Shown here: positions 4,080 to 21,648 of the stretch, piece after piece
Layout: each line of letters begins with the position of its first letter
Position numbering within the stretch: the first letter of the stretch is position 1
Made by a program: the position numbers and the translations under genes
The notes under the pieces: model-generated
The model's database searches: none
Told to the model about the DNA's origin: nothing
Seen by the model: the letters and a program-made list of their open reading frames with translations, nothing else
IMG/VR virus record: IMGVR_UViG_3300029267_004699
Span: 1-22,567 of that record
Strand: one strand, 5' to 3'
DNA: 22,567 bases
DNA from: a virus

Positions 4080-6965
4080 GTGCCTGCACCAGTAGTGAAA
4101 ACAGCCGAACAGGAAAGATTGTGGCGAAAAGCGAAGAAACTAGCAGAAGAGCAAGGAAGAGCAGGCCAATACGACTATATAATGGGAATCTTTAAACAAA
4201 TGCGAGGTATGGAAAAAGCTGGATCCATGCCTGGCATTGCCAAACCAGGCCAGGACAGGCTTTGGGAAGTAGCCAAGAGAAAAGCCAGGCAAGCAGGTAG
4301 AGAACGTGATTACGATTATGTGATGCAGCTCTATCGGGAAATGACTGGATGGAAAAGCCAGGCCATGGAAAAGTCCTACCTGGTGCCTCAAAAGGTACTG
4401 GCTCATATGAGATTCCAGGGTCAAGTGCCAATTCCAGAAAATATCGAAGCCATTCGACTAGCAAAAGAGAAGCCTAAACCGATGTCAGTAGCTCGAATTA
4501 TGGCTCATGATGAGCCTAGAATCAAAGTATCGAGTATTGTCAAAGACTTAGGCATGGATATAGCTACTCAGAATGACTGGACTAACTTTCTGGAAACTGT
4601 AGTAGTGAGTGCTCCAGACGAAATATCACTGAGAAATGATGTGGTGAGCAAGTGCATGAATGAGCGAATGAATGCAGCTCTTCGAATGGCCATTCTCCAA
4701 CGTGCAGTACGCCACTGGAAGGAATATCGTAAGTCCATGATACACATAGTGAAACCAGAAGAATTGCTCGAGAAAGCAGAAGCAAGAGGTGGAAAGTATC
4801 ATAAGCGAGTACCACGGGAAAAAGGTGGCTACACGTACTATTACGATGAAGAGAAGTACAAGGCGAGCAAGAGAGCTCATACAAGCGGCGATGAAGCCAG
4901 CACTACCTACATCTCCAATCGCATCCAGAAATGCCTGGAGATGGCAGGGAAAGCTGGTTGTGGACCAGATTCTTTCAGTGATCTGGTAAAGAAGTATGGA
5001 GCCAAGAAGGTGGCCACGGTGCTCAAAGAAGGTACTGGCAAAAAGTACTCCTTCGAGAAGGGAAAATTCTTCCTGCAAAAAACAGACAAGAAAATTGCAG
5101 GAAAGCCAGAACCCAAAAAAGTAATGAAAGAGCCTGTTTCATTACCCAAAGAAAAAATCAAGAAATCCGAGCAATTCACTTTGGAAAAAGCAGGTCCACA
5201 TAAGTACATCTCAAAGAAAAGGGATTCCAAGGGTAACTGGGTTTACACCTACGAAGACAAAACCAAGGTAGGTGGCAAAGAATCTTTCACTATTCGAAGG
5301 AAGGATTTGGAGCGAATTGTGCCTGCCATTCGGGATTACCTTCAGTCTGGACGTGGTATCAGCATAGCTCAAGTGGCCAGGTCTTTTCGGATAGAAAAAA
5401 GAGCAGCCATCGAGATAATTCGTGGATTAGAAGAAGGTGGAGCCATCAAGAAAGATGGAGATAAGTATTATCACGTCCGTAGTAGGTCAGACTACATATC
5501 CAAAGAAACAAAGAAGGATTTGGCTCGACTGAAAAAAGAGCGCGAAGCAGAGAAGAAAAAACCAGAACCAAAGCTCGTAATTCCCAAAGAAGATAAGAAA
5601 AAGCTCGTACCTGGTGAGCAGCTAGGGCTTTTCCAGAAGCCAGTGAAGCCAGAAGAGCGAATTCTCACCATGGATGAAGAGAAGACCACTGAAGAAAAAG
5701 TGGAAGATTCTCAAAAGCAGAAGGAAAACCAGGAAAAGGAGCAAACCAAGGAAGAGCCTACTCCAGTTAAGACTGAATCAGAAGGAAATTGGGATGATAT
5801 GGACTGGCTGGAGTACGAGTACGAGCGCGTACATGAAGCAATGGCAGATGTAGAAGATACTGATGAAATGCTTCGTTTAAGAGCACGTTTCGACAAAGTA
5901 AAAAACGCAATATCAGCTTTGAAGAAGTTCAAAAAAGAACCAAAGCAGAAGCCAGTGCCAAAAGAGATAGTGGAAGATTCCAAACCTGAACAGAAGGCAG
6001 ACAAGGAGTACAAATTCACCATACCAGCGAAGACCATTCAGAAGCTGGAGTCGAAAGTGGACCACCAGCCATATTCAGCTGGAGATGTACTAGCTGGCAA
6101 TGCTCCATACGGACCAGGGGATTCAATGTCTGCAGACCATGATAGTCAAGAGAATGCTTACATCATCGATGACTATCCTTATGGCAGGCAAAGAACAGAA
6201 AAGCGTGTTTGGGTTGAAACGAATAAGAATGGCCAGCGAATGGTGAGCCAGACCAAACATCCCTACAAAGGTCATTGGAACAAACCCAAGTACAGCAATT
6301 ACTACGATATGCTTAGTCTCAAAATGGATGAAAAAGGTCACGTCACATACGGAATAGCTGATATGACCTATGCCAAAGAGGGACTTGCAAAATTCAAAGA
6401 AGAGCATCCAGATACCTATGCCAAGCTCTCTAAAAATCAGCAAATCCAAATCAATAGCATCATCAAATTTCAACAGAATCGAGATGCTGGAATGAGCTTC
6501 GAAGAAGCACGTCAAACCATGTTGAAAGAGCATGTTCAGACCTTGAAGCAAGAAGGTTTGCCGGAAACATGGAAGAAGCAGAAGGAAGCCAAGCAAAAGC
6601 AACAGAAAGAGAAGTTCAAGGAAGAGCCTATCGGTGAAGCACCAGTAGTTTCTGCAAAGCTGAAAGAGCTCGGGTTACTCAGTATTTCCGATGCAGCCAA
6701 AATGGACACAGTAGCAGATATAAAGGGTCATCTGGCAGAATATGGGAGATCCGATTACTTTGGTGCCAGATCGATAGCTAATGCCTATAAGCGATTGGCA
6801 AAGCAGGCCACAGAAACGAAACATCACAGACTGGCTACCCAGTACAAACACCTTGCCAGTGTATTGGACAATTTAGGTGGTCATGGTCTTCCTAGAAAAC
6901 AAGCAGTGAATGCTTTGGATAAGCTGAAAAAGCATGTAGCCAAACATGGTACGGTAGACGAATAA
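4080..6965 (+). CDS. Large modular phage polyprotein (961 aa) with repeats, Gly/Tyr modules and a winged helix
   Basis: It starts at GTG 4080 behind TAGGAG (4067-4072). Residues 8-42 and 56-90 are two copies of a helical unit (LWRKAKKLAEEQGRAGQYDY and LWEVAKRKARQAGRERDYDY). Residues 232-256 carry the RGGKY.KRVP...YTYYY module and 370-393 the GPHKYISKK...GNWVYTY module. Residues 405-466 look like a winged HTH (ISIAQVARSFRIEKRAAIEI, then a beta wing). Residues 480-640 are a charged Glu/Lys-rich linker, 650-760 an aromatic/Gly-rich part, and 760-961 helical. [LM]-E-K-A steps at residues 44-47, 230-233 and 368-371 fall near the domain edges. It ends in a TAATG overlap with the next giant gene and lies upstream of the portal, so a virion-internal polyprotein is plausible. 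Whole-protein function is not recognised. Confidence 0.85.
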   Translation: MPAPVVKTAEQERLWRKAKKLAEEQGRAGQYDYIMGIFKQMRGMEKAGSMPGIAKPGQDRLWEVAKRKARQAGRERDYDYVMQLYREMTGWKSQAMEKSYLVPQKVLAHMRFQGQVPIPENIEAIRLAKEKPKPMSVARIMAHDEPRIKVSSIVKDLGMDIATQNDWTNFLETVVVSAPDEISLRNDVVSKCMNERMNAALRMAILQRAVRHWKEYRKSMIHIVKPEELLEKAEARGGKYHKRVPREKGGYTYYYDEEKYKASKRAHTSGDEASTTYISNRIQKCLEMAGKAGCGPDSFSDLVKKYGAKKVATVLKEGTGKKYSFEKGKFFLQKTDKKIAGKPEPKKVMKEPVSLPKEKIKKSEQFTLEKAGPHKYISKKRDSKGNWVYTYEDKTKVGGKESFTIRRKDLERIVPAIRDYLQSGRGISIAQVARSFRIEKRAAIEIIRGLEEGGAIKKDGDKYYHVRSRSDYISKETKKDLARLKKEREAEKKKPEPKLVIPKEDKKKLVPGEQLGLFQKPVKPEERILTMDEEKTTEEKVEDSQKQKENQEKEQTKEEPTPVKTESEGNWDDMDWLEYEYERVHEAMADVEDTDEMLRLRARFDKVKNAISALKKFKKEPKQKPVPKEIVEDSKPEQKADKEYKFTIPAKTIQKLESKVDHQPYSAGDVLAGNAPYGPGDSMSADHDSQENAYIIDDYPYGRQRTEKRVWVETNKNGQRMVSQTKHPYKGHWNKPKYSNYYDMLSLKMDEKGHVTYGIADMTYAKEGLAKFKEEHPDTYAKLSKNQQIQINSIIKFQQNRDAGMSFEEARQTMLKEHVQTLKQEGLPETWKKQKEAKQKQQKEKFKEEPIGEAPVVSAKLKELGLLSISDAAKMDTVADIKGHLAEYGRSDYFGARSIANAYKRLAKQATETKHHRLATQYKHLASVLDNLGGHGLPRKQAVNALDKLKKHVAKHGTVDE
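4773..4847 (+). repeat. RGGKY..RVP...YYY module, copy 1
   Basis: Residues 232-256 of the 961-aa protein: K-AEARGGKYHKRVP, a short basic turn, then GGYTYYYD. A second copy lies in the MuF fusion protein at 15148. Both follow L-E-K-A. Probably a small beta hairpin; no named family recalled. Confidence 0.75.
5187..5258 (+). repeat. GPHKYIS...GNWVY module, copy 1
   Basis: Residues 370-393 of the 961-aa protein: KAGPHKYISKK, spacer, KGNWVYTYED, directly after L-E. A near-identical copy is in the 1164-aa protein at 8105. Confidence 0.8.
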
Positions 6966-9900
6966 TGGGTAACACAGTCGATACGCATGGAAGCAAGGGT
7001 AAGGGATGGATTGGTGTAGACCTCGATGGCACCTTAGCTCACTACGATGGATGGAAAGGTGAAGAGCACATCGGAAAGCCTATCCCTGCCATGGTTGACC
7101 GTGTGAAGCAGTGGCTCAATGAAGGTAAGGATGTACGAATCCTAACTGCCAGGGTAGCTCACCAAAGAGGTACTGGAAGCAGAAGACGTTCTATAACTGC
7201 AATCTACAATTGGCTGGAAGAGCATATCGGTCAAAAGCTCCAGCTTACAAATTCAAAAGACCATGAGATGATCGAGCTTTGGGATGATAGGGCAGTACAG
7301 GTAAAGCCCAATACTGGCCAAAGAGCAGATGGTCTCAAGAAGTCGATGGAGAAAAATATGTCTGGTAAATTCAAAATGAAATTAGTCACTGAAAAGAGTG
7401 AAAAGCCAGAAATTGATGAGCAAGAAAAAGAAGAGCTCAAAGAGCAGAAGAAAGAGCCACCGAGTATGGTGCCAGGCATAAAATCTGATTGTGAAGATGA
7501 CCTCGAAGACCTCAAGAAAGAAAAGAAGCTCGAGAAAGCAGGTCCGTACATAGGACCCCAAGGTGGAAAGTACAAAGATGCTCAACGCAAGATTCCTTGG
7601 AAAGAAGAGTACGGTGAAGAGCACAGTAAACCATCGAATAAATACCAGGCAGCACACGATAAGGCTCTCAAGAAATTACAAGATGTATGGGGGCCAACTG
7701 CTTTGGATATTAATCCAGACAAAATCTCAGATCCAAAGATAAGAAAGGTATTTGAGACAGCTCACCAGAAGTATTGGGATGCTAAAAATGATTTGATGGA
7801 TTATCAGACTGAGCAGCAAGAGAAGAAGGATGCGAAGGCCAGGGAAGCACGAAAAAAGCAATTGGGTTCTTTTAATACCAAGATAGAAAAAGATTTTAAG
7901 AAAATGAAAGAGGCACATCTTGCCAAATGGGGGGATGTGATGATTGATGAACTTCCCCCTGAAAAGAAGAAAGAGTGGGAAAGTGACTTTCGAAAAATCA
8001 AAATGAGGCAAGAGGCCATAATTGAACTACAGGCAGCTGGAAACAAAGCCAAAAAATCGATGGAGCCAGGCATGTCTGGCATCGAAGAGCTCGAGCAGTT
8101 TGCTAAGGCAGGACCACATAAGTACATCTCGAGAAAAAAGGTTAAGGGTAATTGGGTTTACGAATATCCAGAAGACAAGAAAAAGAAAAAAGGGCACATT
8201 AGGGCCAAAGCCGATGAAACTGTAGAGAAGTTAAATAGCAAACTGAAAGAAAGTGGATTGTCAGGAACAGCTCATGTCGATTATTTATATGGACGAATGG
8301 GTAACATTAGAATTGAAAGTGCTTCTGGCACTACAGCAGCAAACATCATGATTGATGATGGTGTCTTCAAAATACCTCGTAAGGTAAAAGAACAGTATGG
8401 AGCTGAGAGTAAATTTGTTAGAGTTTTGAAAGAAGTAGTAAAGCCTTCTGAAGACAGAAAAGTACAACAAACTGAAGGTGGCGAATTCAAGGATTTTGGA
8501 GAGCCCTTTGGTGTTGGAGCTGAATTGAAACTGAATGGTCATCCAGCTAAGGTCAAAAAGATAGTTGAAACCACGGATACACCAGGGAACAAAGAGTACG
8601 AGGTTACTCTTAGCCAAAAAAACAAACCTGATATAACCGCTAGACTGAATAGCGAAGGCCATTGGACTTATGCACGTGATTGGAAAGAATTCAAAGACCT
8701 ATGGCATCACAAAGATACAGGTAAAGAAGCAATAAAAATCAAACATGAAGTAATGAAAAAAAGCGAGGTAGCAATGTCTGGAATAGAAGAGCTAGAATCA
8801 TTCGTAAAAGGTGGACCATACATCGGGCCGCGTGGTGGGAAGTGGGCAGATCCAGATCACAAAATACCTTGGGCAGAATCTGAGAAGAAGAGAGCCAAAG
8901 GGAAGACTGCCAAAGAGTGGCCTACTTTGAAAGATGATAGAGTAGACTCTCATGCTGTTCGTGAGCTCGAGCTCTATGCTGATAATGACCACGATCTGTA
9001 CAGGCAGAAGGAAGCCTTCCATTCGAATGTGGTCAAGAAGATGGCAGCTGGAAAGTATGACCATGCACAAGCTCCACAACTTTGGTCTTACTATGCTGAT
9101 AGGGTAGCTGCGAAGTACACCAAGGAATTTGGTGGCAACTTCGATAAACCTACCAGGCAGGCACTGGCACATGAGATGGCCAATGACTTCCATGATGAAG
9201 TGAAGCAGAATCCAGACGACTACGAGAAGTTTGTACCCAAGAAGTACAAAAAGGATTGGGGCAAGAAGGAAGGCACTGGTCCAAAAGATGTGATGACTTC
9301 CATGCCAATTCTTAGCCAGATGAACACAATCAAGAGAGACCCTGCAGAACTATCCATGGGTGATAAAGCTGATTTGAAATCTGTTGGTTTTCTCAAAGTG
9401 AATAAGAATGGAAATTCAGTTCTTACAAAGCAGGGTAAGTATGTCAAGGAAACGATGCAGCCAGTAGCCTATGCAGCTGCTCGCAGAACAGTAGCCAGGC
9501 TACAAAACAACAAGATAGATATGGCAGAAGTTAGTTCTGACATCAAAACCGATTTGCGCGGTATGGGTTGGGCAAAAACAGACAAAAACGGAAACACAGT
9601 TCTTACCAAACAAGGTAAAGCTTCAATGAAAATAACTGGAGCTCCAAAGATAGAGAAAAGCGAGGTAAACATGTCTGGAATAGAAGAATTGGAAGAATTC
9701 ACAAAATCCAGTGGAGCAGGTGGCATGCCAACTGGAAAGCCACGAATTGGTGGCACTGGTGGAGAGCAAGGTGGACCACTGGCAGGCAAAGGGAAAACCA
9801 GTGGATCTGGTGATTCATCCAGTGGAGAGCCTATTGGAGCTCCAAAGCCGAAAAAGGACAAGTTGAGCGAAGATGATGCAGAAGACGAAAAGCAGATGAA

Positions 9901-10459
9901 GCCACATAAGAAGCCTATCGAGAAGATGGCCAAGTCTGATGATGATCTGCCTATCCAGAAGTCAGACACTTCTCCACAAGGCCAAAGAGACATGGTGGCA
10001 CATAGAACAGCTCAAGTAGTCTCGAAGATAAGGAAAGGCGAAGAAGACATCCAGGGTTATGCAGTTGGAGTAGCTCCACCACCAGCACCAAAAGAAGAGA
10101 TGGTGAAGGGCAAAGAGTGGAATCAAGGTCCAGATTCTTTTGTCAACTACTCCAATCAAGCAGACCTCGAGATAGAGAAGCTCTTCAAGTCTGATGATTT
10201 CTACACCAATGGCTCTCCTACTATAGGAATGCAGCCACTGTTGAAACAACAGAAGACTTGTCCATCATGCAAATCTATGATGAACAAATCTCTTTCTGCT
10301 TGTCCAAGTTGCGGATTTGGAACAGTAGAGCATCGAGTAGTGCCAGTGAAAGAGCAAAGCACTGAGATGCAGAAGTCCACCAGGGGACCACTGTTGAAAC
10401 CAAGGGTCGAGAAGGATTTGTATCTTCCTAATGGAGTAGACAATTCTGAAGAAGAGTAA
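6965..10459 (+). CDS. Giant modular protein (1164 aa): HAD-type phosphatase, repeated MSG cassettes, C-terminal zinc ribbon
   Basis: Its ATG overlaps the preceding stop (TAATG), so it is translationally coupled. Residues 14-115 are a HAD-superfamily hydrolase core: motif I D19-L-D-G-T23, motif II-like T61-A-R63 and acidic motif IV W-D107-D108-R-A. Residues 191-213 and 615-636 are GPYIGP.GGK(W/Y)...IPW modules; 381-404 is a GPHKYIS module. MSG boxes start at M132, M370, M604 and M903. Residues 664-760 (RELELYADNDHDLYRQ...) resemble a small domain that I recall from other phage proteins without a name. Residues 774-832 and 835-891 are a tandem repeat. Residues 915-960 form a Gly/Ser linker. C1099-x2-C1102 and C1113-x2-C1116 form a zinc ribbon. 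It lies 12 bases before the portal gene. It reads as a string of fused small proteins. HAD substrate unknown. Confidence 0.85.
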   Translation: MGNTVDTHGSKGKGWIGVDLDGTLAHYDGWKGEEHIGKPIPAMVDRVKQWLNEGKDVRILTARVAHQRGTGSRRRSITAIYNWLEEHIGQKLQLTNSKDHEMIELWDDRAVQVKPNTGQRADGLKKSMEKNMSGKFKMKLVTEKSEKPEIDEQEKEELKEQKKEPPSMVPGIKSDCEDDLEDLKKEKKLEKAGPYIGPQGGKYKDAQRKIPWKEEYGEEHSKPSNKYQAAHDKALKKLQDVWGPTALDINPDKISDPKIRKVFETAHQKYWDAKNDLMDYQTEQQEKKDAKAREARKKQLGSFNTKIEKDFKKMKEAHLAKWGDVMIDELPPEKKKEWESDFRKIKMRQEAIIELQAAGNKAKKSMEPGMSGIEELEQFAKAGPHKYISRKKVKGNWVYEYPEDKKKKKGHIRAKADETVEKLNSKLKESGLSGTAHVDYLYGRMGNIRIESASGTTAANIMIDDGVFKIPRKVKEQYGAESKFVRVLKEVVKPSEDRKVQQTEGGEFKDFGEPFGVGAELKLNGHPAKVKKIVETTDTPGNKEYEVTLSQKNKPDITARLNSEGHWTYARDWKEFKDLWHHKDTGKEAIKIKHEVMKKSEVAMSGIEELESFVKGGPYIGPRGGKWADPDHKIPWAESEKKRAKGKTAKEWPTLKDDRVDSHAVRELELYADNDHDLYRQKEAFHSNVVKKMAAGKYDHAQAPQLWSYYADRVAAKYTKEFGGNFDKPTRQALAHEMANDFHDEVKQNPDDYEKFVPKKYKKDWGKKEGTGPKDVMTSMPILSQMNTIKRDPAELSMGDKADLKSVGFLKVNKNGNSVLTKQGKYVKETMQPVAYAAARRTVARLQNNKIDMAEVSSDIKTDLRGMGWAKTDKNGNTVLTKQGKASMKITGAPKIEKSEVNMSGIEELEEFTKSSGAGGMPTGKPRIGGTGGEQGGPLAGKGKTSGSGDSSSGEPIGAPKPKKDKLSEDDAEDEKQMKPHKKPIEKMAKSDDDLPIQKSDTSPQGQRDMVAHRTAQVVSKIRKGEEDIQGYAVGVAPPPAPKEEMVKGKEWNQGPDSFVNYSNQADLEIEKLFKSDDFYTNGSPTIGMQPLLKQQKTCPSCKSMMNKSLSACPSCGFGTVEHRVVPVKEQSTEMQKSTRGPLLKPRVEKDLYLPNGVDNSEEE
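7346..7378 (+). repeat. MSG cassette 1: SD-like site plus in-frame internal ATG
   Basis: GGAG (7348-7351) lies 6 bases before the in-frame ATG at 7358, which reads MSGKFKMKLV after KKSMEKN. It is the most divergent of the four cassettes, lacking IEELE. Confidence 0.5.
7535..7603 (+). repeat. GPYIGPRGGKW-type module, copy 1
   Basis: Residues 191-213 of the 1164-aa protein: KAGPYIGPQGGKYKDA...KIPWK, just after L189-E190. It differs from the other three copies in Q for R and Y for W. Confidence 0.8.
8050..8104 (+). repeat. MSG cassette 2: SD-like site plus internal ATG
   Basis: GGAG (8062-8065) lies 6 bases before the in-frame ATG at 8072, which begins MSGIEELEQFA and leads straight into K-AGPHKYIS. 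It is preceded by KKSMEPG. Confidence 0.6.
8105..8176 (+). repeat. GPHKYIS...GNWVY module, copy 2
   Basis: Residues 381-404 of the 1164-aa protein: KAGPHKYISRK, then KGNWVYEYPED. It follows F379-A380 and matches the copy at 5187 with few changes. Confidence 0.8.
8756..8806 (+). repeat. MSG cassette 3: SD-like site plus internal ATG
   Basis: GAGG (8765-8768) lies 5 bases before the in-frame ATG at 8774, which begins MSGIEELESFV and runs into K-GGPYIGP. The DNA around it is nearly identical to cassette 4, suggesting recent duplication. Confidence 0.6.
8807..8872 (+). repeat. GPYIGPRGGKW module, copy 2
   Basis: Residues 615-636 of the 1164-aa protein: KGGPYIGPRGGKWADP...IPW, after F613-V614. 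It begins the third cassette unit. Confidence 0.85.
9284..9637 (+). repeat. Tandem ~58-residue repeat inside the 1164-aa protein
   Basis: Residues 774-832 and 835-891 align: GDKADLKSVGFLKVNKNGNS with SDIKTDLRGMGWAKTDKNGN, each followed by VLTKQGK. The DNA also matches (AA.GGAAA..CAGTTCTTAC.AA.CA.GGTAA). The upstream helices (ILSQMNTIKRDPAELS and TVARLQNNKIDMAEVS) align too, giving a small helix plus beta-wing unit duplicated in tandem, possibly winged-helix-like. Confidence 0.7.
9653..9714 (+). repeat. MSG cassette 4: SD-like site plus internal ATG
   Basis: GAGG (9662-9665) lies 5 bases before the in-frame ATG at 9671, beginning MSGIEELEEFTKSSGAGG. It leads into the Gly/Ser-rich linker rather than into a GP module. 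Confidence 0.6.
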
Positions 10460-10471: not shown

Positions 10472-12091
10472 ATGGGTTTTTTTCGAGATGAATTTGGAAG
10501 GCTAGGAAGAGAAGCTATAGGCTTACTTGGTGCCTCCCTGCAGAAAGCAGCACAATCTTCATCGGAAGAAACGCTTGAGAAAACCGATGCTGGTGGACCA
10601 GTGCCAACTGAGAGTGCTCAAGAAGACCCTAAAGCATTGCTTTGGGATCCATTCTCGATTGTAGAGCAGCTCGGATACAAAGATAGGAACAGTGCTATCA
10701 CCTATGGCACCTTGAAAGCCATCACTTATCGAATGCCAATTGTGCAAGCGATAATCCAGACTCGTATCAATCAGGTAGCTGCATTCGCAGTACCACAACA
10801 TGACAAATACCAGATAGGGTTTAGGGTCAAGTTGAGAGAAAGCGAGAAGGAGCCAACAAAGGCAGAGCTCAAGTGGATGAAGGATATGGAAGCTCTTCTA
10901 ATGAATACTGGTGTAACCAATAATCCACAAGGAAGAGACAACTTCGAGACTTTTCTGAGAAAGATTACCTACGATTCACTGACCTATGACCAGATGACTT
11001 ACGAAATCGTAGAGAACAAAAAAGGATTGCCTGCAGAACTGTATGCAGTGGATGCAGCCACCATGAGACTGGCAGATAGTGCCAGTGCAAATTTCGATGA
11101 AGATGATGTCGATGCTGTTAAGTACGTCCAAATCTACGATGGCATGATAATAAACGAATACACTCAAAATGAGATGTGTTTCGGTATCCGAAATCCTCGC
11201 TCGGATATTCGATTACAGGGTTATGGAGTGAGTGAGCTCGAGATGCTCATAACTACGATAACCAATCTCTTGTATTCGTGGCAGTGGAATCAAAACATAT
11301 TCACCCAAGGTTCTGCAGCCAAAGGTGTTTTGAACTTCAAAGGTACGATTCCAGAAAAGCAGCTCCAGGCTTTTAGGAAGCAGTGGTACACTCAGATTGC
11401 TTCTGTACAAAATGCCTGGAAGACACCGATTACCAATGCAGAAGATTTGCAGTACATCAATATGCAAACGACTGCCAGGGATATGGAGTTTTCTGCATGG
11501 ATGGACTTTCAAATCAAAGTCTGTTGTGCACTCTACTCCATGGACCCGATAGAGCTCAACTTCAAATATGGCAATGCTGGCCAGAAATCAGCACTCAATG
11601 AATCGAACAACAAAGAGAAAATCACTGAAAGTAAAGAGCGTGGTTTGAGACCACTTCTTCGATTCATCGCACAAGGTCTGAACCAGAACTTCTTGTGGCC
11701 TATCAATGAAAACTTCGAGTTTGCCTTTGTAGGACTGGATGCAAAGACACAAGCCGATACCATCGACATCAATACGAAGCGAGTCAAATCGATAATGATG
11801 ATAGATGAAATCCGAGCAGAAGACGACTTGCCACCACTTCCAGATGGAAAAGGTGAAGTGATACTCGATCCAACTTGGTTGCAATTCTCTCAAGGTGTAG
11901 ATGGACAACAGCAAGGCGAAGAAGGTGCGATGTTTGGAGAAGGTGAAGAAGGCGAAGAAGAGCCTGGTGGCGAAGAAGATGTGGACTACGAAAAGTTACT
12001 AGCTGAATACGAAGCAGAAGGCGATGAAGACGAAGAAGACGAAGAAGAGTCTGAAAAGAGCCTACGAAAAAGCTTCGTTGTGAATTTATAG
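10472..12091 (+). CDS. Portal protein
   Basis: A 539-residue protein, a typical portal length, that should form the dodecameric ring at the capsid vertex through which DNA is packaged and ejected. It is recognised by the order TYGTLKAITYRMPIVQAIIQ-TRINQVA (stem start), a middle with TYDQMTYEIVENKKGLPAEL, FGIRNPRSDIRLQGYGVSEL and AAKGVLNFKG, and FGRN-type residues replaced by NFKYGNAGQKSALNES, all characteristic of HK97/SPP1-like portals. The N-terminal ~60 residues are variable and contain L-Q-K-A (23-26) and L-E-K-T (35-38). The last ~75 residues (from about 465) are extremely acidic Glu/Asp/Gly sequence ending in a basic SEKSLRKSF tail, possibly disordered. The start follows GGAAG. It is followed at once by the gene at 12101. 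Confidence 0.92.
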   Translation: MGFFRDEFGRLGREAIGLLGASLQKAAQSSSEETLEKTDAGGPVPTESAQEDPKALLWDPFSIVEQLGYKDRNSAITYGTLKAITYRMPIVQAIIQTRINQVAAFAVPQHDKYQIGFRVKLRESEKEPTKAELKWMKDMEALLMNTGVTNNPQGRDNFETFLRKITYDSLTYDQMTYEIVENKKGLPAELYAVDAATMRLADSASANFDEDDVDAVKYVQIYDGMIINEYTQNEMCFGIRNPRSDIRLQGYGVSELEMLITTITNLLYSWQWNQNIFTQGSAAKGVLNFKGTIPEKQLQAFRKQWYTQIASVQNAWKTPITNAEDLQYINMQTTARDMEFSAWMDFQIKVCCALYSMDPIELNFKYGNAGQKSALNESNNKEKITESKERGLRPLLRFIAQGLNQNFLWPINENFEFAFVGLDAKTQADTIDINTKRVKSIMMIDEIRAEDDLPPLPDGKGEVILDPTWLQFSQGVDGQQQGEEGAMFGEGEEGEEEPGGEEDVDYEKLLAEYEAEGDEDEEDEEESEKSLRKSFVVNL

Positions 12092-12512: not shown

Positions 12513-13454
12513 ATGCGGTTAAAGCTGGATGCAACACCAGAAGAGCTTAAAGAGAAAGCACCTAATCTTCTGAAGTCTCTTGGTGAGATACTCGAGCCAG
12601 TCTCACCAGAAATGGCAGAAATACTTGAGAAGGCTTTACCTCGCAAGGAGTCGGAGCTCAAGTTTCCAGTTTTAAGAGAGCTCCAGAAGAGAACAGAAGT
12701 ACTCTACGACCAGCAACTAGAGCTCATGCTCAAAGACATCTCCAAAGTACTGAATCGAAGTAAGACCAGAAAGTCACTTGATGAAGAAAACGACTTAGAG
12801 AAGGCAGGACCCTATATCGGACCCAGAGGCGGGAAGTGGGCAGATGCTGCTCACACTATTCCTTGGAAGGAAGAAGAGCAACCTACCAAAGAACAACGTC
12901 TGGCAGCTATGAGCAAGGAGCAATTCAAAGAAGCGGTAAAAGATGGTGTTAGCTTGCATATGCATCGTGGCATGTCGAAAGAAGACAAAGGACATGGACC
13001 GCAATGGTTTGCTACTTCTAAAAAGACTGCATCTAGATACGCAAAAAATGTTGGAGAAGATGGTATAGTAAAAACCAAAACTGTAGTCATGAAAAAACCC
13101 TACATAGCCAGCACTGTAGAGATGATAAATGTTGCTACTGGCACTGTTCAAAAATTAAAAGAGCAAGGCTATGATGGAATTGTGACTCAGTGGAGCGGTG
13201 GAATACCCACTAAGTTTAATCCAAATCCAGAAAAAGAAATTTGGGCAGTAGATTTCGAGTCTATGAAGAAGTCTCTAGCCTCTCCAGACTACACCGAAAA
13301 GATAATAGACCAGGAAGAAGACAGGTACGAAATAGTCAAGCAAGAGTTGGTTAGCAGGGGATACCAGGAATCGGATTTTGAGCAAGGTGGACCCTTGCAT
13401 GGATACAGTACAAACGAATTGCTCGAGATGATACGAGACAAAAGGGATGATTAG
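12513..13454 (+). CDS. Putative ADP-ribosyltransferase (polyvalent-protein ART type) with GPRGGKW module
   Basis: A 313-residue protein. Residues 1-88 are helical; 97-118 hold the GPYIGPRGGKW...IPW module after L95-E96; 146-250 form an ART-like domain. The domain signs are H151-R152-G near its start, W165-F-A-T-S169 followed by the helix TASRYAKN, a late G218-Y-D-G-I-V and a final strand with E242-IWAVDF. This order (Arg strand, Ser/Thr strand, 'GYDGI', Glu-containing last strand) fits the R-S-E ART fold seen in phage polyvalent proteins and, functionally, T4 Alt, which modifies host proteins after injection. The exact catalytic Glu is not certain. Residues 266-313 form a helical SAP-like tail. 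It lies between portal and MuF genes; stop TAG overlaps the next GTG. An internal, injected enzyme is inferred, not shown. Confidence 0.75.
   Translation: MRLKLDATPEELKEKAPNLLKSLGEILEPVSPEMAEILEKALPRKESELKFPVLRELQKRTEVLYDQQLELMLKDISKVLNRSKTRKSLDEENDLEKAGPYIGPRGGKWADAAHTIPWKEEEQPTKEQRLAAMSKEQFKEAVKDGVSLHMHRGMSKEDKGHGPQWFATSKKTASRYAKNVGEDGIVKTKTVVMKKPYIASTVEMINVATGTVQKLKEQGYDGIVTQWSGGIPTKFNPNPEKEIWAVDFESMKKSLASPDYTEKIIDQEEDRYEIVKQELVSRGYQESDFEQGGPLHGYSTNELLEMIRDKRDD
12801..12866 (+). repeat. GPYIGPRGGKW module, copy 3
   Basis: Residues 97-118 of the putative ADP-ribosyltransferase: KAGPYIGPRGGKWADAAHTI then PW, after L-E. It separates the helical N-terminus from the enzyme domain. Confidence 0.85.
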
Positions 13455-13732
13455 TGAGACCTCGATTCAAAGTATTGGATAAGACTTTCAACACTCGAGC
13501 GAAGGATAAGACTTCGCTACGGAAAGCACAGCAAGCGAAGACCAGGGCTCCTATTGAAGATTCTGAAAAGTGCTACCTGTTTAAAGAGCCAGTGGCAGAA
13601 GAGCCCGAAGAAGTGAACATCCCTAGTGTTCAATGGGATTGGGGTGATACTACAGCTACGAGTGGTGATGTTTATATTTGGAATGGTCGTATGTATGTCC
13701 ACTCAAACGTAACGATGGGAGCTACTTGGTAA
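13454..13732 (+). CDS. Small 92-residue protein between minor-head genes, unknown
   Basis: It starts at GTG 13454, which overlaps the previous TAG stop, with AAAGGGA (13441-13447) as a plausible SD. It ends in a TAATG overlap with the MuF gene. Residues 1-45 are basic and probably disordered (RPRFKVLDKTFNTRAKDKTS); the C-terminal half is a beta-rich tail with WDWGDTTATSGDVYIWNGRM. The family is not recognised. Tight coupling on both sides supports it being translated with the head genes. Confidence 0.7.
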   Translation: MRPRFKVLDKTFNTRAKDKTSLRKAQQAKTRAPIEDSEKCYLFKEPVAEEPEEVNIPSVQWDWGDTTATSGDVYIWNGRMYVHSNVTMGATW

Positions 13733-16700
13733 TGCTACTGACACCAGAACAGCTGTTTGAAATACAGAAAATTATCGAAGAGCATCACCAGGCTTTTGCA
13801 GCCAATGCCTTTGGTCAAGATGCTGTTCCACCAGAAGTGTTAAGGAAGCTCAAAGAAAAAGGTCTCATCAAAGAATCCGTAGATTCTATTTCGGAGTCTT
13901 ACACATACGGTCAACTGATTGGTGTTCTAGAGAATCAAAAAGTAGCAGACATGTCCTATTTGGAATTCAAAGATTACATGTCTGACAATCCGATACCGCT
14001 ATCTCCAATCGAGCGCGGTGCGATGGCCATGGCAGCTGCTAGTGCTGGCCAGTACTGCAGGGGATTAGGAAATCGAGTCGATGTAGCCACTGGAGCGATA
14101 CTCATCGAAGCAGACCAGCAACTTCGAGCTCGGATGGAAGCAGACATTCGAACAGCTACTGAAGAGAACATAGCCAGGCGAGAAACAGTAGAGCAGCTGA
14201 AAACCGATTTGGGATGGGCTACTCGAGATTGGTCAAGAGATATGAAGCGAATCGCAGTCACTGAGAAAGTCACTGCGATGAACCACGGTACTGCAAACCA
14301 TTTCAAGAAGCAGCATGGAGCAGATGTCCTGGTGGCCAAGAGAGCCATGCCAGATGCCTGCAAACACTGCCAAAGACTCTACAATGGACCAAATGGACCA
14401 CGTGTATTCAAACTATCTACCCTCGAAGCCAATGGAACAAACGTAGGGAAGAAAACCGCTGATTGGTTAGCCATCGTAGGAGCTACCCATCCCAATTGCC
14501 AGTGCATTCTGATTCGGATTCCAAAGGGATGGGGATTCGATGAGCATGGTGATCTCGTACCAGGTGGAGAAATTGACCTCTATGAGACTCCAGATGACTT
14601 GGCAGCATCGCTCATGGAAGAGATGGAGCTCCAGAAGGCTTTCAAGCTCCAGGGTCATGTCACCTACCAGGGGATTCCGATTGCCATCGAAAATAAGGAA
14701 GGTTCTGTCCGTAAATGGACTGATGTGAATGGTGCCACTGGTGAGACCAAAATGGTCGGTGTCAACTACGGATATGTCAAAGGCACCATGGGTGCAGATG
14801 AAGACGAAATTGATGTTTTCGTAGGACCAGATCCAAGGGCAAAACTGGTCTATGTCATCGAGCAGCAAAATCCAGATACTGGTACTTACGATGAGCAGAA
14901 GTGCATGCTCGGATTCCCAAATCAGAAAACTGCAGAACGCGCATACATGCTCCATTACGACGATCCAGACACTTTCATCATCACTGTGGAGCCAATGGAA
15001 GTTGAGCACTTTAAGCGATGGGTGTCCACCACGAAGCCTAAAAAAGGCGAGATGGCAAAGAGCTCAAAAGATGATTTAAGTAAATCTAACCAAAATCATC
15101 TTGAAGACAAATTGAAGCTGGTTGTTCTAATTCCAGAAAGACTCGAAAAAGCAGCTGCTCGAGGTGGGAAGTACATCAGAAGAGTACCCTACACCGACAA
15201 AACAGGGAAAAGAAAGTACAGATATTACTACAGTCAATCAGCTGCAGCCAGGGATGTGCAAGCTGGAGAGACCATCAAACTCGGTAAACAGTATGCTGAA
15301 GTGAAGAAAATCGATAAGAATGGCACCATTCATCTCGAGGTAGGCAAAACCACCATTCGAGTAGCTCCAAAACAGTGGGATAATTTGCTGGCCACTCATT
15401 ATGGAGATGCCTACTTCAAGTGGGCAGAAAAGAGGGCAGCACAATCGGTCAATGCTGTTCTAAGGCATGTTCCCAAAGAAGAGCTGGTGGATTTGAAGGG
15501 CAGTACGGACAAGGAGAGACTCGAAGACCTCAAAACTCGAGTACCAAAAGTGTACGATAAACTCCAGAAATCCTTCCAAAGAGCTGGAGTGAATCCATTT
15601 AGAGCCAAGCAGGTACTGACTGCTTCCCTGGAAAGAAGGGGATGGGAACCAGAAGCTCGAGCAGCTGTTATCGGAAATGTCATCACCAAGAGGGATGAGA
15701 ATTATCGTACTACCATACGAGCAGCTGAAAACCTTGCTGGTGGAGCTCGAGTAAAGGTAGGACATGTCGGAGCAGTCACTGAGATAGTCGAGCAGGCCAA
15801 AAATCCAGAAAAAGACTCGATTGCAGAAGTGGCAGCACAAGCAGAAAAAGAACTGGCCAAGTTGAGCTCATTGCTGGCCAAAGCGAAATCGGGAAATCGG
15901 GAAGATGCTGGTGAAGCACTGGCAGCTGCACTCTCTTCGAAGGCTATCCAGCAACTGAACATGATTTCTAAGGCGTTTCCTGGCATTCAGGACAAGGCAG
16001 TAGAGCCTGCCAGGGAAGCCATGCTGGAAGCTCCATCAGTGGCTCCTACTAAGCCTAAGAGCGATGGGAGCTCCACCACAGTCTTTGTAGCTGGTGAAGG
16101 TGGACAACCAAAGGGGTTGAATGCCAGGTACAAGCTGGTGGAAGCAGATGATGCCATAGCCAGTCACGATCCAAGGTCTTTCAACCAAAGGAAAGACTAT
16201 CCAGAAGGTGTTCAGGAAAGAGCGTACCATCGAGACAAGTCAGAACAGGCAAAAGTCCAAAGGAATGCTCAAAGGCTAAGGCCAGAATTCGTTATCAATA
16301 CCAATCCCGATGCAGTGAATGGAGCTCCAATCATGGGTCCAGATGGAGTGGTACTTGGTGGCAATAGTCGAACCATGTCGATGCAACTGGCGTATGCCAG
16401 GCATCCAGAAAAAGCCAAAGAGCTACGCTCGTACATGCTCGAGCATGCTCACGAAGTGGGATTCTCCAAGGAAGATGTGGAGCAGTTCAAAAATCCGATA
16501 CTGGTACGAGTAGTCGAAGATGGTGGAAAAACCAAGGAAGACAAGCAGTTACTAGTTCGACAGATGAACGAATCCTTCACTCAAGGTATGGATCCACGTA
16601 CCATGCAAGTGGCCATGGGTAGGAAGCTCACCGATGAGACCTTGGAAGAGCTCGGAAAAGCCATGAAGCCAGATGAGACTCTCAATGCTTTCCTGGCTAC

Positions 16701-17985
16701 GAAGAGAGCAGAACCCTTCATCAATTCTCTCCAGAAAGTGGGAATCATCGACCAAAGGAATGCAAACCAGTACTTCCTGAAGAATACCAAGAAGTTGAAT
16801 CCAGATGGCAGAACACTGGTGGCCAGAATTCTCGTAGGACGTACCGTGGAAGATGCAGACCTCTTATCTGCTACCAAACCAAGTCTGATAGAGAACATCG
16901 CTCGAAGTGTACCGTACATGGCACAAGCAAAGTCATACGGTAAGGGTTACGATTTGAAAGACGACATTCGTACTGCCCTAGATGCCTATAATAGCCTGCA
17001 ATATCGAGTAGATACTGGCTCGATACCAGCATTGAATGCAGACATGACTGCTCATCGATTCGATAATCTGTTTGGCCAGCAAGAGATGTTTGGTGGCCAG
17101 CATCCAGTTACTGAGAATCCAAGGGCAATGGGATTGCTCGAGGTGCTGATACGGAAACCAGGACCAAATCAGATTACCAAGGTGTTCAAAGATTATGCCA
17201 GGCAAGCAGAACTGAATCCAGAAGGGCAGGCTTCGATTTTTGGAGCCAAAGAGTCCCCTACTGATATTTTCCAGAAAGTGGTCAAAGAAAATCTTCCTAA
17301 GCCACCAGAAGAGAAGCAAGCTGGCCTATTTGGGAAGAGCGAATTCATAGTGCCAGAAGGAATGGACAAGTCTTGGGGATACTTCGTAGGACCACGTGGT
17401 GGAAAATGGAAGGATGCTGCTCACACCATTCCATGGGAAGAGCCGGAAAAGGAAAAAGGCAGGAAGAAACTAGGGAAGCCAGGACCAGACACCGATGATG
17501 TGAAGCCACTTCCAGGCCAAATCGACATTTACGAGCATGTTTACGGGAAATCCTTCGAGGGACTGTCAGGGATAGAGCTGTTTTCCAAGGGAATCCCCAA
17601 TACCATTGGTGCGAGAACCAGTCCACAAGGGAATAGAGCTCCAGGACCAGGTTTGGGTGTCAACTACGTGATTCCGATGCCAAAGAAAAACCCTGGTCAT
17701 ACTCCAGGGGATAGGGAATTGCCTGGTAAGGATGAAATATTTGGATCCAAAGAGGGAAAATCGAAGCATTCCTTGTACACCACCAAGGAAGAATACGAAT
17801 TCATGGAGCAGAATCGCCGGAAATTCCCACTGGAAACACCACAAGTCTACATCGAAGCCAATGAAGATGCTAGAGTAGGCACTGAAGAGCGTGGAAAATA
17901 CGTGAAAGAAGAGAATCTTCGAAATGCTCCAAGACCTAAGAATAAAGCGAAGATAGAGCCTACTGAAGAAGAAGACGACGAATAA
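13732..17985 (+). CDS. MuF-type minor head protein fused to InPase-like and DdrB/ParB-like domains (1417 aa)
   Basis: The start at ATG 13732 overlaps the upstream stop. Residues ~90-265 are a MuF/SPP1 gp7-type head-morphogenesis domain ending in C210-x2-C213 and H253-P-N-C256-Q-C258, normally linked to the portal and carried in the head. Residues 303-436 are an inorganic-pyrophosphatase-like domain (GVNYGYVKGTMGADEDEIDV acidic cluster, then FVGPDP). Residues 473-500 are an RGGKY module, then helical regions to about 770. Residues 783-960 are a DdrB-like ParB-superfamily domain (G876-G-N-S-R880, then NPILVRVV), followed by its usual helical extension to about 1190. Residues 1213-1235 are a GPRGGKW module, then a basic, Pro-rich tail. 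InPase and DdrB/ParB domains on virion proteins are known from phage polyvalent proteins. [LFM]-x-K-[AS] steps mark several domain edges. Confidence 0.88.
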   Translation: MLLTPEQLFEIQKIIEEHHQAFAANAFGQDAVPPEVLRKLKEKGLIKESVDSISESYTYGQLIGVLENQKVADMSYLEFKDYMSDNPIPLSPIERGAMAMAAASAGQYCRGLGNRVDVATGAILIEADQQLRARMEADIRTATEENIARRETVEQLKTDLGWATRDWSRDMKRIAVTEKVTAMNHGTANHFKKQHGADVLVAKRAMPDACKHCQRLYNGPNGPRVFKLSTLEANGTNVGKKTADWLAIVGATHPNCQCILIRIPKGWGFDEHGDLVPGGEIDLYETPDDLAASLMEEMELQKAFKLQGHVTYQGIPIAIENKEGSVRKWTDVNGATGETKMVGVNYGYVKGTMGADEDEIDVFVGPDPRAKLVYVIEQQNPDTGTYDEQKCMLGFPNQKTAERAYMLHYDDPDTFIITVEPMEVEHFKRWVSTTKPKKGEMAKSSKDDLSKSNQNHLEDKLKLVVLIPERLEKAAARGGKYIRRVPYTDKTGKRKYRYYYSQSAAARDVQAGETIKLGKQYAEVKKIDKNGTIHLEVGKTTIRVAPKQWDNLLATHYGDAYFKWAEKRAAQSVNAVLRHVPKEELVDLKGSTDKERLEDLKTRVPKVYDKLQKSFQRAGVNPFRAKQVLTASLERRGWEPEARAAVIGNVITKRDENYRTTIRAAENLAGGARVKVGHVGAVTEIVEQAKNPEKDSIAEVAAQAEKELAKLSSLLAKAKSGNREDAGEALAAALSSKAIQQLNMISKAFPGIQDKAVEPAREAMLEAPSVAPTKPKSDGSSTTVFVAGEGGQPKGLNARYKLVEADDAIASHDPRSFNQRKDYPEGVQERAYHRDKSEQAKVQRNAQRLRPEFVINTNPDAVNGAPIMGPDGVVLGGNSRTMSMQLAYARHPEKAKELRSYMLEHAHEVGFSKEDVEQFKNPILVRVVEDGGKTKEDKQLLVRQMNESFTQGMDPRTMQVAMGRKLTDETLEELGKAMKPDETLNAFLATKRAEPFINSLQKVGIIDQRNANQYFLKNTKKLNPDGRTLVARILVGRTVEDADLLSATKPSLIENIARSVPYMAQAKSYGKGYDLKDDIRTALDAYNSLQYRVDTGSIPALNADMTAHRFDNLFGQQEMFGGQHPVTENPRAMGLLEVLIRKPGPNQITKVFKDYARQAELNPEGQASIFGAKESPTDIFQKVVKENLPKPPEEKQAGLFGKSEFIVPEGMDKSWGYFVGPRGGKWKDAAHTIPWEEPEKEKGRKKLGKPGPDTDDVKPLPGQIDIYEHVYGKSFEGLSGIELFSKGIPNTIGARTSPQGNRAPGPGLGVNYVIPMPKKNPGHTPGDRELPGKDEIFGSKEGKSKHSLYTTKEEYEFMEQNRRKFPLETPQVYIEANEDARVGTEERGKYVKEENLRNAPRPKNKAKIEPTEEEDDE
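15148..15231 (+). repeat. RGGKY..RVP...YYY module, copy 2
   Basis: Residues 473-500 of the MuF fusion: KAAARGGKYIRRVPYTDKTG, then KYRYYY, following L-E. It lies between the InPase-like domain and the helical middle. Confidence 0.75.
17368..17436 (+). repeat. GPRGGKW module, copy 4
   Basis: Residues 1213-1235 of the MuF fusion: KSWGYFVGPRGGKWKDAAHT then IPW, after M1211-D. Here GY-F-VGP replaces GPYIGP. Confidence 0.8.
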
Positions 17986-18430: not shown

Positions 18431-19270
18431 ATGTCAAAGTTGCCATTCGATTTTGAAGTACCCTTAGAAGTATTCGAAAAAGCCGATGCAGAACCAGGTA
18501 AACAAAAGAGAATTGGTGGACTGGCATCTGTAGAAACCAGGGATAGGCAAGATGAAACCATACTAGCACGTGGTTTGGATTTTTCAGACTTCCTTCACAA
18601 TGGCTGGTTCAATGATAATCATTCGAAAGTCACTACGGACATTTTGGGTTATCCAGAAGCTACTCAGTACGTGAGAAAAGGTTCTATGCTTCCTACTGGC
18701 AAGAAAGCCAAAGCAGATGGCCACTGGGTAGAGGGATACCTTCTCGATACCGAAAAAGCGAAAAAAGTTTATGAATTGGGAAAAGCTCTCCAAGAGACCA
18801 ATCGAAGACTTGGGTTTTCTGTAGAAGGCAAAATCCAAAAGAGAAGTGGTCCATCCAATAAGACAATCGCAAAAGCCCTGGTACGCAATGTGGCCATAAC
18901 AAACTGTCCAGTGAATCCAGATGCCACTATGGACATACTGGTGAAGTCACTGCATGCGGTAGAAAAATCCGAACCAGATGAGCTCGAGAAGATGCTTTCC
19001 ATGGGTACTCCTACTCCAGGCCAGGCTCCAACTGGAGTGAAGACTGGTGAAGGAGCTGGCCAGGTAATAACTGGTGAGAGTCTCGAAGATGATGAGAAGC
19101 TCCAAGAGTGGAAAAAAGAAGCCAAGAAAAAGAAAAAAGACACCAAAAAGTCTTTAAGCAATAAAGAAGTACGAGCTTGGTTCAAAGCTCGATTACCTAA
19201 AGCAACGTCAACACAGATTGATCGTGTTGTAAGGATTACCCATGCGTTGAAACGCAAAGGGGAAATTTAA
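18431..19270 (+). CDS. Prohead maturation protease (S78/XkdF-like)
   Basis: A 279-residue protein after GGAGAG. The core at residues 25-172 has the phage prohead serine-protease pattern: an N-terminal strand with IGGLASVETRDRQDE, H64 in WFNDNHSK as the likely catalytic His, S130 in R-LGFSVEG as the likely nucleophile, and VRNVAITNCPVNPDA as the closing strand with the family's 'V...P.NP.A' signature. Such enzymes cut scaffold and capsid N-terminal regions inside the immature head. Residues 180-279 are a charged helical extension that may act as scaffold or be self-cleaved; F15-E-K-A18 and E-K-S/E-K-M steps near residues 178-188 flank the core. It precedes scaffold-like and capsid genes, the classical order. 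Catalytic residues are assigned by pattern, not alignment. Confidence 0.88.
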   Translation: MSKLPFDFEVPLEVFEKADAEPGKQKRIGGLASVETRDRQDETILARGLDFSDFLHNGWFNDNHSKVTTDILGYPEATQYVRKGSMLPTGKKAKADGHWVEGYLLDTEKAKKVYELGKALQETNRRLGFSVEGKIQKRSGPSNKTIAKALVRNVAITNCPVNPDATMDILVKSLHAVEKSEPDELEKMLSMGTPTPGQAPTGVKTGEGAGQVITGESLEDDEKLQEWKKEAKKKKKDTKKSLSNKEVRAWFKARLPKATSTQIDRVVRITHALKRKGEI

Positions 19271-19281
19271 GGAGAGTGGCT

Positions 19282-20160
19282 ATGAGCGACAAAGAGAAGC
19301 AGAAGTCGAATGAGCTAGAGAAAGCCATGGAGCCAGAAGGAGAAGAAGAGGAAGTATCAGGTGAAGAGGAAAAAGAGGAAAAAGCTGGTCCTGATGATGG
19401 ATGCGGTAACACTGGTGGTGGAGTAAAAAGTAAAAATGCTCCTACTGCCAAGTCTGCTTGCAAATCCGAAGACCTCACCGAAGATGACCTCGAAAAATCC
19501 CTTGCAAAACTGGAAGAGTACACCGAAGAAAAAGATGTTCCTACCAGAAGGCAAGTACTTCTCGAGAAGGCTCAAGAAGGAGAGCTCACCAAATCCGAGC
19601 AAGATGAGCTCTTCCAGATCCTTGGTGGTGGTGAAGCCAAACCAGACTCCACTTTGGTAGAAGAAGTGGAGAAAGCCATGGAGCCAACTGAAGACATGCA
19701 GAAGGCACTGGATGTCTCTGACTTTCTTAGTGAAACTCACGAAGAAAACAAGCGAGTCAATACTGTTTTGGCAGAACGTATTGAGAAATCGGATTCCAGA
19801 CAGCAATCCTTCAATCTGATACTTGCGAAAGCAATAACAGACATTGGAAAGCTAACCAAGTCCGTAGATGAGAGACTTGCTGGAATCGAAGGTCAACCTG
19901 CTCGAAAGCCAAAGAGCCAGGCCAGACCACTAGCGAAGAGCTTTGCCAATGCTGAACCAACAGCTGGTCAAGGCAATTTGAGCAAATCTCAAATTCTCGA
20001 AACAATGGATGAATTGTTCAGGAAATCCATAGATGCTGGCAATGATGGACTGGTCGAAGGGGTCAACATGCAGATGGCATCTACCAAGTACGAAATGACA
20101 GGAAACGTATCTCCACAAGTTTTGGAGATGGTCAAAAGGCACAGAAGCTCAGTCCATTAA
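19282..20160 (+). CDS. Scaffold-like acidic head protein
   Basis: A 292-residue protein; ATG 19282 is chosen over GTG 19276 because AAGGAGAGTGGCT precedes it with the same layout as other genes. The first ~50 residues are Glu-rich and disordered, with KAGPDDGCGN and Gly/Ala/Ser-rich stretches after. The central part (about 60-200) is helical with coiled-coil character, and the last ~60 residues (MDELFRKSIDAGNDGLVEGV...) form a conserved-looking tail that may bind the capsid protein. EKAMEP occurs twice, and E-K-[AS] or Q-K-A steps recur (LEKA, LEKS, LLEKA, VEKA, MQKA, LAKS), as expected of a protein chopped up by the protease. Its position between protease and capsid genes supports scaffold; sequence alone does not prove it. 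Confidence 0.75.
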   Translation: MSDKEKQKSNELEKAMEPEGEEEEVSGEEEKEEKAGPDDGCGNTGGGVKSKNAPTAKSACKSEDLTEDDLEKSLAKLEEYTEEKDVPTRRQVLLEKAQEGELTKSEQDELFQILGGGEAKPDSTLVEEVEKAMEPTEDMQKALDVSDFLSETHEENKRVNTVLAERIEKSDSRQQSFNLILAKAITDIGKLTKSVDERLAGIEGQPARKPKSQARPLAKSFANAEPTAGQGNLSKSQILETMDELFRKSIDAGNDGLVEGVNMQMASTKYEMTGNVSPQVLEMVKRHRSSVH

Positions 20161-20183
20161 AGGGACAAGGCGTTAACAAGGAA

Positions 20184-20200: not shown

Positions 20201-20217
20201 AAATAAGGAGAATGACA

Positions 20218-21648
20218 ATGCCGGAAATGGTAAGTTGGAAAGACTACGAAGGTGTTGAGGGATTTGCGGCCACGTCCCAAGAAGATGTCAATGAACTTAA
20301 CAAAGCACTCACTGCAGGTTCTGACATCAATGCACCAGGAAGTGTGACACCAGGTGATGGTTTTGCTCTCAGAGTGGAGAGTCTCGAAAGTACGCTGAAA
20401 AACACAACGTACAAGATGACTCACATCAGGTTCTGGAAGGGAATTCCCAAGCTTCCAGCCTACAACACTGTTGAAGAGCACAATGAGCTTTCGAGCTACG
20501 GTGAGAATCCAGATTCTGGATTCATCACAGAAGGAGCCCTTCCCACTGAAGACGACTCCAGCTACGAGAGAAAATACGCAGTAGTGAAATTTCTTGGTAC
20601 GACCAGGAAAGTTTCACATCCGATGACATTGGTTCGTCCTGCTCACGGCAACGTGATTAGTCAAGAGAGTATCAATGGAACCATGCACTTGCTGCGGATT
20701 CTCGAGCGAGCTCTCTTCTACGCGGATAGCTCTTTGAGCACTGTCCAGTTCGATGGTTATGAGAAACTCATAACCGACAATAGCCCCGCAAGCAACATCA
20801 TCGATCTAAGAGGTCAACCTCTTTCAGAAGACATTCTGACCGATGCCTGCTTGACTGTTCAAGATGCACCAAACTACGGTTTGCCGACACATCTGCATCT
20901 GAATCCCAAAGTCAAAGCAGACTTGGTGAAGACCTTCTATCCGAAAGAGCGACACAACACTCTGACCGATAAGAGTGGAATGATTGGTCTGGATGTTAAG
21001 GGATTCACTTCTCCAGCTGGTGATGTGGCTTTCGAGCCAAACGTCTTCATCACTGATGGTGGTGGACCGAATGCAGCTGCAGTAGGACCAGCTGCAGACA
21101 GGCCAGGAAATCCCACTATCTCGACTGCAGCCACCACTCCAGTGGATGGTGCTTCTCAGTTCGAAGATGATGATGCTGGTGACTACTTCATGGAAGTGGT
21201 TGCATGCAACAAATTCGGTCGAAGTGCAAAAGTCGCAGTGGACGGTAGTGCAATCGCAGTGGCAGCTGGAGACAAAATCACCTTTGGTGTTACTCCTTCG
21301 AGCGATACCACTGAGTGGTTCGAAGTCTATCGTACTCTCAAAGATGGTGCCGATGGAACAGAGCGATTGGTACTTCGAGTAGCGAATGGTGCTGGTGCTG
21401 GTGAGACCATCATCAATGAGTACAATGCGAACATTCCGTATTGCACGAGTGCCTTCCTGTTCCAACAGAATCTGGAATCACTTTCCTTCAAACAGTTAGC
21501 ACCCATGGTCAAACTGCCCTTGGCAACCATTGACACAAGTGTGCGCTTCTGCTTGTTGCTGTATGGTGTTCCAGTGATGTACACCCCTGGCAAGAATCTG
21601 CTCATCAAGAATATCGGCAGAGCCAGTGGTTACGTGGGTGCCCCGTAA
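20218..21648 (+). CDS. Major capsid protein with inserted Ig/Fn3-like domain
   Basis: A 476-residue protein; ATG 20218 lies 7 bases after GGAG (20207-20210), while ATG 20212 is only 1 base away and is rejected. Identity is inferred from its place after protease and scaffold-like genes, its length, and an HK97-fold-like course: N-terminal arm, E-loop-like region near residues 85-120 (SSYGENPDSGFITEGALPTE), long spine helix near 145-172 (NVISQESINGTMHLLRILER), then beta-rich P- and A-domain parts. Residues about 297-405 (NPTISTAATTPVDGA ... ETIINEYNANIP) look like an inserted Ig/fibronectin-type domain on the capsid surface. L27-N-K-A30 could be the cleavage step removing an N-terminal segment. 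No family name can be given with certainty. Confidence 0.85.
   Translation: MPEMVSWKDYEGVEGFAATSQEDVNELNKALTAGSDINAPGSVTPGDGFALRVESLESTLKNTTYKMTHIRFWKGIPKLPAYNTVEEHNELSSYGENPDSGFITEGALPTEDDSSYERKYAVVKFLGTTRKVSHPMTLVRPAHGNVISQESINGTMHLLRILERALFYADSSLSTVQFDGYEKLITDNSPASNIIDLRGQPLSEDILTDACLTVQDAPNYGLPTHLHLNPKVKADLVKTFYPKERHNTLTDKSGMIGLDVKGFTSPAGDVAFEPNVFITDGGGPNAAAVGPAADRPGNPTISTAATTPVDGASQFEDDDAGDYFMEVVACNKFGRSAKVAVDGSAIAVAAGDKITFGVTPSSDTTEWFEVYRTLKDGADGTERLVLRVANGAGAGETIINEYNANIPYCTSAFLFQQNLESLSFKQLAPMVKLPLATIDTSVRFCLLLYGVPVMYTPGKNLLIKNIGRASGYVGAP

Follow-up and report, generated by a model that had tools for sequence, protein, structure and literature searches.

The head protease of the phage analysed here probably cuts the capsid protein, the portal, the scaffold, itself and a set of polyproteins at one lysine site, which is the best reading of the data although no experiment has been done on the phage itself. 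The motif, its enrichment, its conservation and its placement are shown by sequence; cutting of the polyproteins, targeting of their leaders to the prohead and ejection of their cargo are inferred and not shown. The window, that is the whole stretch of DNA analysed (IMG/VR virus record IMGVR_UViG_3300029267_004699, 22567 bases), carries from 4080 onward a head module of 961-aa and 1164-aa proteins, portal, small protein, ART-like protein, MuF fusion (with InPase and ddrB-ParB domains), S78-type protease, scaffold and major capsid protein (MCP); all features given below with coordinates in the form a..b lie on the + strand, and a slash marks the proposed cut. The order portal-protease-scaffold-MCP is that of the SPO1-type (herellevirus) head module, with the ART and MuF genes inserted between portal and protease, and the herelleviruses (SPO1, A511, phage K/812) have homologous MCP, portal, protease and scaffold in that order. 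With a homologous MCP that carries a Lys N-arm cut site (the cut by homology only), the window qualifies as an SPO1-type head module, and it is likely to be that of an uncultivated SPO1-related phage; membership in Herelleviridae is not claimed for a 22.5-kb fragment. Its multidomain proteins also qualify as polyvalent proteins, since they contain PolyVal-type domains and are encoded in the head locus of a phage. A small conserved protein (12101-12496) lies immediately 3' of the portal in the relatives compared.

In the MCP, of SPO1/herellevirus type (20212..21648; phrog_752, 3.2e-84; ~40% to SPO1 gp6.1), the N-arm site LNK/A (20296..20307) aligns with K23/S24 of A511 and K24/S25 of 812/K, and its Lys (K31) is invariant in an alignment of 17 capsid proteins. 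In the GenBank entry for Listeria phage A511 the capsid mat_peptide is annotated as beginning at residue 24, after ALK23. For phage 812 the deposited sequence of capsid chain 9row has 439 residues vs 463 in 5lii, with alignments offset by 24; the chain thus starts at S25, after VVK24. The herellevirus MCP N-arm is in this sense cut after Lys, and cleavage of the window capsid after Lys is supported by homology, resting on record annotation for A511 and deposited sequence for 812. All intact capsid proteins of the held-out loci described below (71/71) have [LIF]-x-K/A at the N-arm, with N, R, K, L, H, T or A at P2. The window capsid prefers K/A with Leu at P3, unlike herelleviruses, and no description of a Lys code for herelleviruses was found in the open-access literature searched.

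The prohead serine protease (18431..19270) is probably S78/assemblin-like, judged by profile (PF04586, 5.7e-5, 23.7 bits vs a cut-off of 21; phrog_1028, 1.4e-37) and by its catalytic residues, H64 and S130 being invariant in 51/51 sequences; protease activity itself is inferred. Its AF2 model has a confident core (~21-170) and low-confidence arms, with residues 1-15 at pLDDT <50 and a low-pLDDT stretch that begins at 173. Foldseek ranks 1-11 are all herpesvirus proteases (assemblins), with prob 0.98-1.0 for ranks 1-8, and these fold matches are weak (E about 1e-3 or worse, TM about 0.3). The core is flanked by conserved K17/A and K172/S, the former within FEK/A of the N-terminal arm (18473..18484; Lys in 48/51) and the latter within LVK/S just after the catalytic core (18938..18949; Lys in 49/51, Ser or Ala at P1' in 51/51), a candidate autocleavage site whose Lys is also invariant in A511, K, SPO1 and DAC19. 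The protease C-tail resembles the capsid N-arm, usually with the site, in 24/74 loci and in A511 (1e-11) and SPO1 (2e-10), so that the copied arm is a herellevirus feature too. Window protease and window MCP are only weakly similar (E 0.022), and the arm-copy claim therefore rests on other members. Such a copy could fit docking of the protease on the shell and release by autocleavage, a possibility that is drawn by analogy with SPN3US gp245, which undergoes C-terminal autocleavage (PMC5694885). The C-tail in locus L101 (L101:5844-6584) has 82% identity to the capsid N-arm, K/A site included, and the copy is also recorded at L018:43442-44233; in L131 (G021, oriented 34637-36000) a single open frame matches both protease and scaffold, and this fusion is reminiscent of UL26 of herpesviruses.

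The [LFM]-x-K-[AGS] sites listed across the head proteins by the initial annotation are all present where it placed them, given that its MuF-fusion residues 300/471/1211 assume a start at 13732 (they are 318/489/1229 of the longer ORF) and its capsid residue number a start at 20218. Restriction of P3 to [LFM] proved too narrow and was replaced by [LIVMFYW], with L commonest. The proposed excess of the motif over a shuffled background in head versus non-head proteins held in part and depends on the protein. In composition-matched shuffles, run protein by protein, the motif is enriched in the scaffold (10 sites vs 0.92 expected, p<0.0005), the 1164-aa protein (11 vs 3.8, p 0.002), the MuF fusion (10 vs 3.4, p 0.001), the ART protein (4 vs 0.95, p 0.014) and the protease (4 vs 0.96, p 0.012); the surplus falls short of significance in the 961-aa protein (5 vs 2.8, p 0.15), the portal (p 0.27) and the MCP (p 0.20), and the window's non-head genes show no significant surplus either. 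In the first three of these it is likely that the single conserved site, not site number, is what counts. The further claim that most sites fall at domain borders held for the sites then listed; however, being short, the motif also has copies inside folded parts (such as FWK/G of the MCP, from residue 74 with the ORF start at 20212), and the motif alone therefore does not make a cut site. Annotated domains are poor in sites (7 in 2417 aa vs 85 in 9791 aa, p 0.005).

The window and 8 relatives served to define the motif, which was then applied to 75 further, held-out loci; coupling, the joint occurrence of hydrophobic P3 and small P1' at Lys, is given as OR. Coupling is strong in scaffolds (OR 8.2 in the first set, 10.4 in held-out loci) and proteases (OR 14 and 9.5) and lower in 1164-type proteins (OR 3.6, first set); downstream proteins show none (OR 0.98 in the first set, 1.03 for 368 held-out proteins), and in the first set decoy P1 residues stay close to expected values for most classes. 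Site density per 1000 aa in held-out loci is 37 for scaffolds, 21 for proteases and 2.8 for downstream proteins. The p values are overstated because relatives share ancestry, and an Arg control OR of 4.1 for held-out proteases shows this non-independence of homologues. A very large protein of 2.2-2.7 thousand residues, which lies between MuF and protease in relatives and is absent from the window, was dropped as a candidate substrate, having no coupling (OR 0.90) and no site enrichment; examples of 2.4-2.7 thousand residues are at oriented coordinates G002 32067-39398, G004 20260-28317 and G007 21152-28549 (L025-L030, L037-L038). Two relatives, L107 (CP070713.1) and L108 (CP070677.1), are found within MAG chromosomes that bear the labels Myxococcales and Latescibacterota, which may point to prophages or to hosts if the binning is right.

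The site richness of the window scaffold (19276..20160; phrog_15087) recurs in 11 and 70 homologues of the two sets, and the scaffolds of SPO1 and K are rich in xxK/S. In the A511 scaffold the motif shows no enrichment (2 vs 1.4), and many copies of it occur in the unrelated ribonucleotide reductase genes of SPO1 and K, so single sites may be chance. The N-arm site of the portal, LQK/A in the window (10538..10549), is present in 9/9 portals compared, and the SPO1 portal N-arm carries SLSK/A.

In the large proteins the sites stand before short tags, whose forms are GPYIGPRGGKW, RGGxYxxR, GPHKYxS and, more rarely, RWxGxxGKW. The 961-aa protein has LEK/A before RGGKYHKR (4767..4778) and again before GPHKYIS (5181..5192); its residues 1-539 correspond to two separate genes in the relative G001, joined here at LEK/AGPHKYIS. 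The 1164-aa polyprotein (6965..10459), composed of leaders, tags and cargo, with multiple sites in its C-terminal region, has LEK/A with tag GPYIGPQGGKY (7529..7573) and FVK/G with tag GPYIGPRGGKW (8801..8845), and the ART-like protein has LEK/A before GPYIGPRGGKW (12795..12806). In the MuF fusion LQK/A (14629..14640) lies at the MuF/InPase border, where the InPase match starts at residue 321 and near which relatives have insertions between the two domains; LEK/A before RGGKYIRR (15142..15153) lies, with the two preceding MuF sites, in a predicted linker of pLDDT<50 between InPase and tag domain, and MDK/S (17362..17373) precedes the variant tag GYFVGPRGGKW. A zinc-ribbon-like CPSC...CPSC occurs at 10253-10320 (residues ~1097-1118 of the 1164-aa protein), and K/S or K/A between the Cys pairs, an odd position for a cut, is also seen in several relatives.

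Across 99 proteins 55/57 tags are preceded by a site, vs 18% of random positions, with 1-8 aa between Lys and tag. When a DNA pattern for the tag that is blind to Lys was run on viral contigs, 89 of the 96 unique tags found had a site just before them, with 18 kinds of residue at P2; a second site upstream is present for only 29/55 tags (27% at random). The window protease family is present on 15/18 tag contigs and the window capsid protein family on 14/18, the three contigs without protease being 20-39 kb records. A rival explanation is that the K-A/G/S step is no cut site and merely forms the beginning of a tag domain (EKAGPYIGPRGGKW) that has been duplicated and moves from gene to gene. Most of the sites first listed in the 961-aa, 1164-aa, ART and MuF proteins do precede related tags; however, the varying distance from Lys to tag is unlike a fixed duplicated domain, residues vary both before the Lys (as at P2) and between it and the tag, and MCP, portal, protease and scaffold carry untagged copies of the motif. 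We regard this rival as very unlikely.

A second rival accepts cleavage of capsid, scaffold and protease, and holds that the polyproteins stay intact or are cut at few places, other motifs being chance occurrences in Lys-rich linkers. In its favor, coupling is weak in pooled MuF/ART fusions (OR 1.4, first set), as in the large upstream proteins of held-out loci (OR 1.4), and 42 head proteins of SPN3US are reported uncleaved (PMC10052503). Against it, the tests on tags and on fusion edges respond specifically to Lys with a small residue after it: gene-fusion edges lie <=12 aa from a site in 16/20 and 15/23 cases (random 0.28 and 0.17), compared with 0-17% for R/E/D decoys. At internal C-edges of homologous blocks, sites are hardly more frequent than at random. 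Intact or sparsely cut polyproteins remain an unlikely alternative.

The leaders that end at these sites are acidic and amphipathic-looking, and are alike at gene starts (MTIEALDEFAK/GGPYYGPRGGKW) and inside proteins (K/SIDTLDDFAK/GGPYYGPRGGKW). Three copies of MSGIEELExFxK/ occur in the window, all in the 1164-aa protein: MSGIEELEQFAK/ (8072..8107) precedes a GPHKYIS tag, MSGIEELESFVK/ (8774..8809) has the upstream site KK/SEVA and a predicted excised peptide of 16 aa, and MSGIEELEEFTK/ (9671..9706) has the upstream site EK/SEVN. Gene-start propeptides of relatives likewise end at a protease site (MTIEALDEFAK/, MPARFLLRENFWK/ and MNK/, known by sequence only), and as short N-terminal propeptides they resemble capsid-targeting sequences; prohead targeting is inferred from sequence alone. 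Their acidity, their amphipathic look and the likeness of leaders at gene starts and in mid-protein would also suit a third rival, that leader-Lys segments are uncleaved motifs for docking to scaffold or capsid. The same P3/P1/P1' pattern marks, however, the place where the capsid proteins of A511 and 812 are cut, and docking and cleavage roles are also compatible; exclusive docking appears very improbable.

The proposal of the initial annotation, that a single S78-type protease reads one code in capsid, scaffold, protease, portal and polyproteins, is supported because the MCP site is homologous to the mature N-termini annotated for A511 and deposited for 812, because the pattern was replicated in 75 held-out loci with downstream-gene and other-P1 controls, because tags were found without reference to Lys, and because tag and protease family co-occur. 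It remains an inference, since no virion of the window phage has been analysed and neither polyprotein cuts nor retention of products in virions has been shown. In the preferred mechanism the protease would cut after Lys in hydrophobic-any-Lys/Ala, Ser or Gly within flexible segments, trimming the N-arms of capsid and portal, fragmenting the scaffold, cutting itself on either side of its catalytic core, and cutting polyvalent proteins between modules to give many separate products inside the capsid. Polyproteins would be strings of [short leader - K/ - tag - cargo] units, in which the leader, often with two flanking sites, would serve in the manner of T4 capsid-targeting sequences before its removal, leaving cargo with a small tag at its start to be ejected along with the DNA. 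A bolder reading, toward which we lean only slightly, is that each polyprotein carries, in its interior, several capsid-targeting leaders, that the head protease excises every one of these at a pair of Lys sites, and that a single gene would in this way supply first the capsid and then the host with several separate, tagged cargo proteins.

Capsid-targeting sequences of T4 cut by gp21 and propeptides of SPN3US/phiKZ are N-terminal leaders of 10-20 aa removed by the prohead protease, and these phages package internal proteins (PMC5694885, PMC9958956). T4, phiKZ and SPN3US cut after Glu, whereas the proposed window cuts are after Lys, and their leaders are described as N-terminal, whereas those of the window group also recur inside polyproteins. 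P1 gp23 was ruled out as a Lys-type case, being cut after Glu (MLE/S). In the HK97 gp4 protease/gp5 delta domain system, the gp5 sequence reads FNK/S at its known processing point; the capsid N-terminal domain of HK97 acts as scaffold (PMC9024508), and unlike the window HK97 has no such polyproteins. With the polyvalent proteins (Iyer et al. 2017, PMC5512222) the window group has cargo types in common, namely ddrB-ParB, InPase, ART-PolyVal, LPD1, SNF2 helicase and Zeta toxin. In P1, the capsid signal of DarB is N-terminal and no longer than 30 residues (PMC9024508). Processing of DdrB is ascribed to its own metallopeptidase domain, whereas for the window the head protease and repeated internal sites are proposed. 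Tag polyproteins were not found in cultured phages, which match the 1164-aa protein over its first 131 residues only (protein search). Short tag queries run by tblastn also gave no hit in them, although such queries are weak and absence is unproven.

The elements are known singly, and the combination was not found in the literature searched; what is new is a Lys version of the prohead code that would reach polyvalent polyproteins with repeated internal leaders. If this is true, the large polyvalent proteins of the window group would be precursors, and their cargo (pyrophosphatase, ParB-like, ART, helicase and Zeta-type kinases) would act as separate proteins with predictable N-termini. It would also provide a readable code with which to predict the injected proteome from sequence, and would suggest how cargo modules may fuse and swap without losing packaging.
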